Both the position numbers and the translations under genes were made by a program. Shown piece by piece: positions 13,835-18,613 of a stretch of 25,928 nucleotides of DNA. The DNA comes from a virus. Each line of letters starts with the position of its first letter. The stretch's first letter is position 1. The notes beneath the pieces are model-generated. The model made no database searches and had not been told where the DNA came from. It saw only the letters and a program-made list of their open reading frames with translations. Location: positions 1-25,928 of IMG/VR virus record IMGVR_UViG_3300034356_000355; one strand, written 5' to 3'.

Positions 13835-14068
13835 ATGGAAAATAAAAAAACAGCAATAAAATGGCTAGAAGATAATTTAAACTTTGAGCCTCATGACGAA
13901 GAAGAATTTATTAGTAATAATAAAATATGGGAGCAAGCCAAAGCAATGGAGATAGAGCAAATAATTAGTGCGCATAATGATGGGGCACTTATGGCTTACG
14001 CTTTACCATTCAATGCACCATTTAAAAAAGGAGAAGAATATTATAACGAAACTTATGGAAAAATCTAA
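13835..14068 (+). CDS. Hypothetical 77-residue acidic protein
   Basis: Begins MENKKTAIKWLEDNLNFEPH and has a helix WEQAKAMEIEQIISAHNDG followed by a short aromatic stretch and YYNETYG near the end. WLEDxLxx...EQAKxMEKEQI is a pattern I associate with small phage proteins of Bacteroidetes, without a known function. It overlaps the next small gene by 14 nt. Confidence 0.5.
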   Translation: MENKKTAIKWLEDNLNFEPHDEEEFISNNKIWEQAKAMEIEQIISAHNDGALMAYALPFNAPFKKGEEYYNETYGKI

Positions 14069-14189
14069 ATTTAATCAATGGCAAGACCATTTAGCAAAAG
14101 AGCTAAATAAGGATTACAAAAAGCTTTATTATTCAGCTAAGTATCCTGCTAAAAAAGAGGTAAAAAAAGTTTTACTTTCTAAAAATTAG
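14055..14189 (+). CDS. 44-residue basic hypothetical protein
   Basis: The frame is open from 13968, but the ATG at 14055 is preferred. It overlaps the upstream gene by only 14 nt and begins MEKSKFNQWQDHLAKELNKD, a better N-terminus than the out-of-frame overlap before it. The rest (YYSAKYPAKKEVKKVLLSKN) is strongly basic, so it could bind nucleic acid. It is the last gene before the structured RNA. Confidence 0.4.
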   Translation: MEKSKFNQWQDHLAKELNKDYKKLYYSAKYPAKKEVKKVLLSKN

Positions 14190-14199
14190 TTTTATATTG
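14168..14199 (+). promoter_or_regulatory. Weak promoter candidate for the structured RNA
   Basis: TTATATTGC (14192-14200) matches the Bacteroidetes -7 box TAnnTTTG only partly. A GTTTTA at 14169-14174 sits at about the -33 distance. The implied start near 14206 coincides with the first paired base of the RNA below, which is the main reason to list it. Confidence 0.3.
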
Positions 14200-14205
14200 C
14201 AGAAC

Positions 14206-14296
14206 AATAAGCCGAGCGTGTGGTAGCACTCGGGTTATTTTAAGGGTTTAAAAAACCGAAGCCAGATTTGCTCTACCACGCAGACTGGCTTTTTTT
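14206..14296 (+). ncRNA. Structured RNA with loop-loop complementarity, upstream of the replication initiator
   Basis: Three hairpins in about 90 nt. Hairpin 1: 14206-14216 pairs with 14229-14239 (10 of 11 pairs, one G-G mismatch) with a 12-nt loop. Hairpin 2: 14245-14249 pairs with 14253-14257. Hairpin 3: 14259-14265 pairs with 14285-14291, with a 19-nt loop and a T7 run. Loop bases 14218-14226 of hairpin 1 can pair with 14273-14281 in the loop of hairpin 3 over 9 contiguous pairs (one G-U), predicting a kissing complex. No ORF covers it. It could be a separate small RNA, or a cis leader controlling the initiator gene that begins 9 nt downstream. The structure is read directly; the function is inferred. 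Confidence 0.6.
14259..14296 (+). terminator. Intrinsic terminator hairpin directly before the initiator gene
   Basis: A 7-bp stem (AAGCCAG with CTGGCTT) and T7 run. Its unusually long 19-nt loop carries the complement of the upstream hairpin loop, so termination could be influenced by loop-loop pairing. It lies between the small-gene operon and the initiator gene; downstream expression needs readthrough or control here. Confidence 0.65.
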
Positions 14297-14304
14297 ATTT
14301 TATA

Positions 14305-14991
14305 ATGGAAAAAGAAGCATTTTACTTTCCGCATTTTTGTAATGCAAGACATGACCGAAAAATTAGACGGCTAAGGAAAGAATTAGGAGTCGAGGGTTAC
14401 GGAATTTATTTTATGTTATTAGAGACATTAAGAGAGCAACAAGACTTAATGTATCCGCTTGAAGACATAGACTTGCTAGCCGAAGAGTTTGGAGTATCGG
14501 AGCCAAAAATTAGAACTACTATTTGTAATTACCAGCTATTTGATGTAGACGATGAACAAAAGTTCTTTTCCCCTAAAATGCTAGTTTACTTAGAGCCATA
14601 CTTTAAAATGAAAGAGCAACGCAAAATGGCTGGAAAAGCATCTGCCGAAAAACGAATGCTTAACGACCGTTCAACGACCGTTCAACAAAGTAAAGTAAAG
14701 GAAAGTAAAGTAAATGAAATAAAAGAAAAAGAAAGTAAAGTATCTTTTAGCGAAATGCTTTCGCCTTACACTTTAGAACTTGGGAACGAATACGACAATT
14801 TCTTTTCTTATTGGACGGAAAAAAATAATAAAGGTAAGGAGCGATGGGAAATGGAAAAATTCTTTGATATTAGCAGACGAGTTAAAACTTGGATGAATAA
14901 CAATTCTAAATTTAAAAACAATGGAGCTACAACAAACGAACCGAAACTCGGGACTAGTGCAGCAAGAATGGAAGCCATTAAGAACTGGTAA
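14305..14991 (+). CDS. Replication initiator/primosome protein (Lin1244/Lin1753-like, DUF4373)
   Basis: 228 residues. The N-terminal about 105 residues match the Lin1244/Lin1753-like domain: FYFPHFCNARHDRKIRRLRK, then GVEGYGIYFMLLETLREQ, EEFGVSEPKI and KFFSPKMLVYLEPYF. These winged-helix, DnaD-related proteins are thought to bind the origin and help load the host helicase. A low-complexity Lys/Ser/Val linker (residues about 127-147, built from ESKV and KEKE units) leads to a C-terminal helical domain (DNFFSYWTEKNNKGKERWE, then RRVKTWMNN) typical of DnaD-like phage replication proteins. The linker DNA contains tandem repeats. The start is ATG, 9 nt after the terminator T run and without an obvious Shine-Dalgarno site. 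The next gene starts 71 nt before this one ends. Confidence 0.75.
   Translation: MEKEAFYFPHFCNARHDRKIRRLRKELGVEGYGIYFMLLETLREQQDLMYPLEDIDLLAEEFGVSEPKIRTTICNYQLFDVDDEQKFFSPKMLVYLEPYFKMKEQRKMAGKASAEKRMLNDRSTTVQQSKVKESKVNEIKEKESKVSFSEMLSPYTLELGNEYDNFFSYWTEKNNKGKERWEMEKFFDISRRVKTWMNNNSKFKNNGATTNEPKLGTSAARMEAIKNW
14662..14683 (+). repeat. Two tandem 11-bp repeats (AACGACCGTTC) inside the initiator gene
   Basis: Two perfect head-to-tail copies at 14662-14672 and 14673-14683, followed by a partial third (AAC). Because 11 is not a multiple of 3, the repeat is not a protein repeat (it encodes NDRSTTV). Selection on the DNA itself is therefore likely, for example as initiator-binding iterons spaced about one helical turn apart. 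Confidence 0.6.
14687..14742 (+). repeat. Three copies of AAAGTAAAGTA in an AT-rich tract
   Basis: Copies start at 14687, 14702 and 14732, separated by 15 and 30 bp. These spacings are multiples of 3 and encode ESKV-type units, so a protein-level cause is possible. The tract is purine-rich and almost lacks C, so it could also serve as an easily melted element beside the 11-bp repeats. Confidence 0.5.
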
Positions 14992-15682
14992 CGTAACGGC
15001 GGACGTTATATTAAAAGCGCAGAGCACTCAAAGTTTACGTGTAAGACACGAAGAAGACTTAAAGCAAGTCTTACGCTATGCCATGGTTTTAGTCGGCCTT
15101 AGGGGCAATAATATGCCTACCGAAGAGGAGAAGTTTGTCTTACTAAATTTTATACGCTCGAACTTTGGAAACCAAACACCAGAGGAGATAAAGCTAGCCT
15201 TTGATTGGGCGGTAAGTGGTAAGCTAAACGTAGACGCTAAATGTTATGAGAACTTTTCTTGCGAATACTTTGGGCGAATAATGAAAGCTTATATCGACTA
15301 CGCTAGACAAGAGACGATAACCGTACCGCAAATAGAAGAAGTGGTAAAAGAAATTCCAAGCGATGCAGATTTAAAGATAGCGGCGATTAACTCAGCTAAT
15401 ATGTACGCTCAAGAAATGATAAGATGCCATGAGCGAAATATAAAAATGAATTGGATAGCCGGTGGCCTCCACGTTCTTTACGACTACATCGTAAAATTTG
15501 GAATTTACGAGGCTAGTTTAGAAGACAAACAAAGAATCTACGCCACAAATGTAAACAAGTACGGCTCAAAGGATGAGCTTGTAATGGCTTGCAAGGCTCA
15601 ATGTTATCGAGAATTTATCGAAAATTTAGCAGACTTTAAAGCGTATCTTACCGAAGACGGAGAAATTAAACCTATTGAATAA
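14921..15682 (+). CDS. Putative replication accessory protein
   Basis: 253 residues starting with ATG 71 nt before the initiator gene stops. The first 30 residues read MELQQTNRNSGLVQQEWKPL. The rest is helical: RHEEDLKQVLRYAMVLVGL, EEEKFVLLNFIRSNFGNQTPEEIKLAFDWAV, FSCEYFGRIMKAYIDYARQ. The pattern P-T-x-E-E-K-x-x-L-x-x-F-I-R-x-x-F-G followed by FGRIMxAY often follows DnaD-like genes in Bacteroidetes phages and looks like a helicase-loader or replisome adaptor. There is no ATPase P-loop, so it is not a DnaC-type loader. The role is an inference from position and helical pattern. It ends with a TAATG overlap on the methyltransferase gene. Confidence 0.55.
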   Translation: MELQQTNRNSGLVQQEWKPLRTGNVTADVILKAQSTQSLRVRHEEDLKQVLRYAMVLVGLRGNNMPTEEEKFVLLNFIRSNFGNQTPEEIKLAFDWAVSGKLNVDAKCYENFSCEYFGRIMKAYIDYARQETITVPQIEEVVKEIPSDADLKIAAINSANMYAQEMIRCHERNIKMNWIAGGLHVLYDYIVKFGIYEASLEDKQRIYATNVNKYGSKDELVMACKAQCYREFIENLADFKAYLTEDGEIKPIE

Positions 15683-17979: not shown

Positions 17980-18152
17980 AACCAGACGAGAGAGCAGCTT
18001 CGCTAATGAATAATGCTTATTACTTTACGGGTAATAAGATGTTTGCTAGGGAGCTTTGCCTTTATATGTGCGGAATGATTAGTGAGTATTGCCAAAAAGC
18101 TGACGATAAGATTTACTGGAAATTAGTAGCTGAAAATATTTACCTACTTTAA
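17976..18152 (+). CDS. 58-residue hypothetical protein
   Basis: MKPDERAASLMNNAYYFTGN, continuing KMFARELCLYMCGMISEYCQ and ending VAENIYLL. It starts with an ATGA overlap and ends with a TAATG overlap on the sigma-like gene, which argues strongly for a real gene. It is helical and Cys/Met-containing; not recognised. Confidence 0.55.
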   Translation: MKPDERAASLMNNAYYFTGNKMFARELCLYMCGMISEYCQKADDKIYWKLVAENIYLL

Positions 18153-18613
18153 TGGAGCATATCTACTCACGTCACAAGCACTGGGTTTCAATAGTTAAGA
18201 AGTTTGGCGAAGTCAATTACGCCGAAGACGTAGTCCAAGAAGCATACATCAAAGTTTATGGCAAAGATATTAACGAGGCTTATTTTTACTATACGCTTAG
18301 AAGCCTTACGATGGACTTACATTCTAAGAAAGTGGTTAAGGTAGAAGTAACTCAGGATATAGAGTACAGCTTAAGAGAGGATGAAAGCAACGAACTAGCA
18401 GAAGAATTAGCCCAGCCGTTTATAGAGTTTATTGATACTTGGGACTGGTACGACAAAAAGCTATTTATGCTTTGGGTTAACAATCGAATTTCAATACGTA
18501 AATTATCAAGGGAAACGAACATAGGGTTTATGAGCGTTTACAATACCATTAAAAAATGTAAATTAAAATTAAAGTTATGGCAAGAAAATCAAACAAAGAA
18601 TCAATTGACGTAG
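18152..18613 (+). CDS. Sigma-factor-like protein (reduced sigma-70/ECF type)
   Basis: 153 residues. An N-terminal region with NYAEDVVQEAYIKVYG (residues 22-37) resembles sigma region 2 (the A-E-D-(L/V)-x-Q-E-x-(F/Y)-x-(K/R)-(L/V/A) pattern), and a C-terminal helix-turn-helix (about 113-141, SIRKLSRETNIGFMSVYNTI then a basic KKCKLKLK end) resembles region 4. It would bind core RNA polymerase and direct it to phage promoters. Its place just upstream of the terminase suggests control of packaging and structural genes. The region 2-region 4 linker is acidic. It could instead be a small HTH regulator with only superficial sigma similarity. Confidence 0.65.
   Translation: MEHIYSRHKHWVSIVKKFGEVNYAEDVVQEAYIKVYGKDINEAYFYYTLRSLTMDLHSKKVVKVEVTQDIEYSLREDESNELAEELAQPFIEFIDTWDWYDKKLFMLWVNNRISIRKLSRETNIGFMSVYNTIKKCKLKLKLWQENQTKNQLT

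Follow-up and report, generated by a model that had tools for sequence, protein, structure and literature searches.

A kissing-loop RNA with promoter and terminator signals precedes replication initiator genes in a group of phages

RESULTS

The locus and the fold of the RNA

The DNA analysed here (the window) is the complete 25,928-base virus record IMGVR_UViG_3300034356_000355. It encodes an ERF recombinase, a RusA-type nuclease, a phage lysozyme, a portal protein and a terminase large subunit. Its terminase shares 60% identity with the enzyme of Nonlabens phage P12024L, a phage of flavobacteria, so the host is likely a flavobacterium. On the plus strand, positions 14305–14991 encode a replication initiator (Pfam Lin1244_N, 1.2e-14; PHROG 2562, replication initiation protein, 7.8e-21). 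Further along (18152–18613), a 153-aa protein without any Pfam match holds a place in the gene order resembling that of P12024L gp35, annotated as sigma-70 region 2.

Directly in front of the initiator ATG (14305) lies a predicted noncoding transcript on the same strand (14205–14297, ends ± 1–3 nt; 98.2 bits with covariance model R1, described below). The region folds at −34.3 kcal/mol (z −4.57), and none of 200 shuffled sequences folded equally well. The RNA of about 90 nt consists of a hairpin P1, a small hairpin P2 and a terminator hairpin P3. P1 (14206–14239) pairs 14206–14217 with 14228–14239, closes a loop of 10–12 nt (14218–14227) and contains a G.G mismatch (14211/14234) that recurs in 49 of 60 distinct sequences. 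P2 (14245–14257, GGUU...AACC) comes from the fold; two relatives, L023 and L025, keep it as GGUA/UACC. P3 with its T-run spans 14259–14296, the hairpin proper being 14259–14291. The sequence and the coordinates of P1 and P3 had been given correctly in a first-pass annotation of the window, which had also assigned to P3 a loop of 19 nt. An inner stem (14267–14271 with 14280–14284) reduces this loop to 8 nt (14272–14279).

The loops of P1 and P3 are complementary. The kissing core joins 14220–14226 (GUGGUAG) to 14279–14273 (CUACCAC on the P3 strand), which makes 7 bp in the window and 8 in most relatives. Of the nine pairs originally proposed, these seven stand and the outer two (14218–14281 and 14219–14280) fall away, as they engage bases of the inner stem and are not conserved. 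The window has a single case of a hairpin followed by a terminator hairpin plus T-run in which 8 loop bases pair; both strands of 60 shuffled windows gave 1 such hit, a chance of about 0.02 per window.

Distribution and two loop classes

With the initiator protein as query, IMG/VR yielded 80 loci, 79 of which reach the region before the gene. A kissing RNA, of one of two classes named A and B, is present in 78 of these 79 and in the window. Together with two pattern scans, more than 100 viral contigs carry it (79 from the homology set, 77 and 34 from the scans, these sets overlapping). The RNA-bearing relatives are uncultivated phages, probably infecting flavobacteria. The single homology-set locus with upstream sequence and neither class of RNA (L074) may hold a third class or none.

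Class B, found in about a third of the loci, occupies the same place with a different sequence. Its polarity is reversed relative to class A, the strand in hairpin 1 being pyrimidine-rich and that in the terminator hairpin purine-rich. Five class B loop versions were seen (CUCACUAC, CUUCUCAC, CUCUCGAC, CUCCUUAC and GUUCUCAC), each matched over 8 of 8 bases, and the inner terminator stem of this class shows compensating changes too. Two pairing rows, ATTGGAAG and GTCGAAGT, proved to be scan artefacts; on rechecking, the true partners were paired at 8 of 8 positions. Most versions of both classes share the motif GU-N2/3-GAG facing CUC-N2/3-AC, from which a few, including GUGGUAG of the window, depart by one letter. 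We considered AGGAG of the loop as a Shine-Dalgarno mimic and rejected this, as it is absent from other loop versions.

Mapped on the tree of the initiator gene, loop types were exchanged at least 26 times, and 8 of these exchanges were between classes A and B; recombination may lie behind many of them. No fetched locus carries both classes. One record of 59,277 bases, IMGVR_UViG_3300027969_000114 (loci L017/L087 and L153), has two RNA copies with the same loop code, each preceding a different initiator type; either assembly has fused the genomes of two phages here, or the replication module is double.

Covariation of the stems and of the kissing helix

Covariance model R1 was built from P1 and P3 alone, leaving the kissing pairs outside, and was used to align 83 copies (60 distinct sequences). 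In this alignment 97.4% of cells are paired, compared with 85.3% in shuffles, and 22 pairs change on both sides. In P1, 10 of 11 pairs do so (98.9% of cells paired) and in P3, 9 of 12 (96.0%); the T-run is nearly universal in relatives. Compensatory change is seen in P1, P3 and the kissing helix alike.

To score covariation we applied a G-test with average-product correction and compared it with a null that replays substitutions along the tree; the script was our own, in the style of R-scape, and its E-values are rough. The nine top-ranked column pairs all fall within the proposed structure, and the kissing pairs 19–87 and 20–86 rank 4 and 9 among 4005. In class A, all 7 core kissing pairs are formed in 52 of 52 sequences. 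Along the tree of initiator genes, at least 14 changes fell on one middle pair and at least 10 on the other, with pairing always kept; the four outer core pairs did not change at all. Relatives that lose both loop complements without compensation, which would have spoken against a kissing RNA, do not occur.

As a blind test, the viral collection was scanned with a pattern that left the two middle kissing letters free in both loops. Of the 67 new loci obtained, the free letters pair in 6 of 6 that match the model and in 9 of 61 that do not, the latter about chance level. With these results, we regard the RNA structure as near certain.

The linker between P1 and P3 measures 16–21 nt in 60 of 60 distinct sequences, a tight geometry that favours pairing inside one molecule. 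The tree-aware test over the 4005 column pairs gave no covariation for a mutually exclusive antiterminator helix, or for anything beyond the one structure, and models of the nascent fold gave alternative pairings in some sequences only. A cis switch on termination, as first suggested, may apply and is the class of mechanism that we prefer; the word 'switch' is unproven, because antiterminator pairing does not covary.

Position before replication initiators

The next ATG follows the end of the model by 7–13 nt in 79 of 82 scored copies, whichever open reading frame (ORF) comes after. An initiator-type protein is encoded by the first or second ORF behind 79 of the 83 class A copies (a single-linkage BLAST cluster). 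The initiators sampled are HTH_36 proteins and two kinds of Lin1244_N protein, of which one falls slightly short of the Pfam cut-off; the RNA therefore goes with initiators as a class and not with one protein family. Where an extra ORF intervenes (at L010, L023 and L057, for example), it is the start of that ORF which lies 7–13 nt behind the RNA. At L140 and L145, the ORF directly behind a class A RNA is small and contains cysteine (MENKNTKAPRTILCNWCNKRRLFSNGYYLGK...); it is among several small ORFs inserted at exactly this point. Copies retrieved by the loop-blind pattern behave in the same way, with an ATG 8–10 nt behind in 6 of 6 cases, 5 of which open an initiator-like ORF. The tight spacing may merely reflect compact phage genomes.

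Upstream, the genes vary in kind among loci. A neighbouring 89-aa gene was considered as a dedicated protein partner and rejected: it is not directly upstream in the window and occurs in phages of many hosts.

Promoter and terminator signals

A Bacteroidota −7 promoter box of the TAnnTTGY type (TATATTGC) lies at 14193–14200 on the plus strand, at a position conserved across relatives. A TAnnTT(T/G) box ends 4–7 nt before P1 in 68 of 68 distinct upstream stretches (background 6.9%), and a strict TAnnTTTG is found within 22 nt upstream in 44 of the 68 (background 1.1%). In Flavobacterium psychrophilum, the sigma-A box TAnnTTTG is located at −12 to −5, with a related TAnnTTGY box in the same place (PMC9723704). 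By this spacing, transcription should begin no more than a base or two from P1. By the Bacteroidota consensus (TAnnTTTG or TAnnTTGY), the box of the window puts the start no further than about one base from the first paired base, where the earlier proposal had placed it; the box is better than the weak one described then. At the other end, the T-run of P3 should terminate the transcript. A promoter at the 5′ end and a terminator at the 3′ end are thus conserved sequence signals, as in an intrinsically terminated small RNA.

The box is TAnnTTGC/T in the window and several relatives, and TAnnTTTG or TAnnTTTA in most. In F. psychrophilum, the TAnnTTGC/T type is attributed to another sigma motif, SM5. 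Given these two box types, the timing of the RNA may differ between phages.

Between P3 and the ATG, a TAnnTTTG box was found in 0 of 62 sequences, and the initiator therefore appears to depend on read-through. On the minus strand, this promoter type is absent from positions 14000–15200 of the window; with 14 scattered occurrences in 73 relatives, no conserved antisense promoter of this type was found.

Searches for known relatives

The window and 15 relatives of both classes gave no Rfam 15 match above the gathering threshold, and a permissive threshold brought up nothing beyond chance level. The commonest class A loop pattern, the one version scanned there, has no occurrence in 84,980 bacterial and archaeal genomes; 17 distant relatives of the initiator from such genomes are without the RNA. 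Against 50,697 phage records, BLAST searches with both classes returned short, chance-like matches only. Nonlabens phages P12024L/S, the closest cultured phages by terminase, have no such initiator annotated and no match to the RNA. Polaribacter phages Danklef and Freya and Flavobacterium phage 1/32 were set aside as possible relatives, as their neighbourhoods, compared by annotation only, differ. No published description of the RNA was found in the literature covered, most subscription journals lying outside that coverage. The RNA family is previously undescribed. Covariation, promoter and terminator signals belonging to the RNA itself and the lack of an Rfam match support the suggestion of a new small RNA of phages that has a kissing loop.

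DISCUSSION

A possible gate in front of the initiator gene

The reading that we favour, to which we give an even chance, is that of a promoter–RNA–terminator cassette gating expression of the replication initiator, with the kissing clamp as part of an attenuator. It is preferred because the initiator seems reachable only through a terminator whose hairpin is one half of the kissing pair. Host RNA polymerase would start at the −7 box and make P1 first, then P2, then P3. The emerging P3 loop would pair with the waiting P1 loop, clamping P1 and P3 side by side and aiding formation of the intrinsic terminator. Most transcripts would then end as a compact RNA of about 90 nt, read-through alone yielding initiator mRNA, and in read-through transcripts the clamp would maintain a rigid fold some 13 nt ahead of the start codon. 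Flavobacterium does without Shine-Dalgarno sequences, and structure near the start codon lowers translation there (PMC6847099). The supply of initiator would thereby be kept low and tunable. The sequences show the structure, the kissing helix, the promoter and terminator signals and the fixed place before initiators; termination at P3, a kissing contact that promotes rather than prevents it, and initiator output as the controlled quantity are inferred.

In plasmids pT181 and pIP501, a terminator is located before the rep gene. The P3 hairpin with its T-run is likewise an intrinsic terminator just before an initiator gene, and in the attenuators of both plasmids, as in the phage RNA, a loop–loop contact is central (PMC4878617). 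The plasmid systems differ in that they need an antisense RNA from the opposite strand and an antiterminator, whereas the phage RNA finds its partner in its own terminator hairpin and showed no conserved antisense promoter of the TAnnTTTG type.

Alternative readings

A promoter of its own and RNA ends coinciding with the structure fit a free-standing small RNA equally well. Such an RNA would act in trans, the kissing clamp serving as a compact, nuclease-resistant scaffold that binds a protein or RNA of the phage or of the host, and the place before the initiator would merely be a convenient early-gene site. It would also explain why the RNA stays constant while its neighbours vary, both the upstream genes and the Lin1244_N, HTH_36 or small ORFs downstream. 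A neutral location would not, however, predict an initiator-type gene behind 79 of 83 class A copies, nor that all 6 loop-blind copies have their ATG 8–10 nt behind and that 5 of these open an initiator-like ORF. As neither a conserved unpaired seed nor a partner protein was found, we hold this reading to be rather unlikely, if the most serious of the alternatives. The phage RNA has a parallel in AbiF-type and type III toxin-antitoxin loci, in which a folded noncoding RNA of phages, equipped with signals of its own, sits just upstream of a protein gene (PMC12373285). Type III toxin-antitoxin RNAs consist of tandem repeats ahead of a toxin gene, whereas the present RNA is single-copy and the initiators downstream belong to different families.

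A second alternative is a same-strand RNA for copy-number control or superinfection exclusion. Terminated copies would accumulate with genome number, pair by their loops in trans with nascent copies and shut the initiator off. The variable middle loop letters would define compatibility groups, so that like phages alone silence each other. Fixed outer core pairs around middle pairs that changed repeatedly yet stayed complementary in class A, the same layout of constant and variable loop letters in class B, the at least 26 type exchanges on the gene tree (8 of them between classes) and the lack of loci with both classes are what this reading would lead one to expect. Against it, the P1 stem varies equally fast, so that drift and compensation may suffice, and the change counts are inflated by recombination. 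Pairing in cis would outcompete pairing in trans at low concentration, and the short fixed linker points to cis. Nor is there a plasmid-like or lysogenic sign, the commonest class A loop pattern being absent from the 84,980 genomes. We consider it improbable that a self-complementary RNA targets nascent copies of itself in trans through a loop code that can change, and that two classes of different sequence, A and B, have arrived at such a mechanism. If true, lytic phages would have plasmid-like copy control and incompatibility groups without an antisense transcript.

This bears on the likeness to IncI/IncB plasmids drawn when the locus was annotated. In ColIb-P9 and pMU720, the repZ/repA leader forms a pseudoknot by loop-based tertiary pairing upstream of the replication gene. 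The phage RNA shares loop-based tertiary pairing in this position, and, as in antisense-controlled rep leaders, the rep initiator is directly downstream. The analogy fails in that no conserved antisense promoter was found for the phage RNA and its loop partner lies in a terminator hairpin, not beside a ribosome binding site. The opposite-strand antisense RNA of IncI, IncB and pT181 leaders found no counterpart in our scan, which covered the TAnnTTTG promoter type, and no leader-peptide coupling was found at the phage RNA. Antisense control of the IncI/IncB kind is therefore not supported by these sequence scans.

An RNA that helps the origin to fire, for example as a primer or R-loop former beside the initiator gene with no part in its expression, would account for a site that is always where the replication module begins. 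We think this very improbable: an intrinsic terminator hairpin makes a poor primer 3′ end, and the turning point in strand composition that marks an origin was not found here. Packaging RNAs of the phi29 type carry two loops whose letters vary between phages yet remain complementary, pairing between molecules in the packaging ring. The loops described here are similarly variable and complementary; unlike the packaging RNA, however, this RNA is smaller, has a linker of fixed length and lies beside an initiator, in a phage with an ordinary terminase large subunit. Finally, terminator-like hairpins are frequent in AT-rich intergenic gaps, but a chance fold or an ordinary terminator can be dismissed, refuted by the compensatory changes in P1, P3 and the loop–loop helix and by pairing in 6 of 6 loop-blind loci that match the model against 9 of 61 others.

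Significance

The evidence for an intramolecular kissing loop that includes a terminator hairpin is unusually clean. With constant flanks and a variable core, the loops provide a naturally occurring series of distinct kissing pairs built on a single scaffold. The RNA makes testable both the effect of a loop–loop contact on intrinsic termination and the control of the replication initiator in small double-stranded DNA phages of Bacteroidota.
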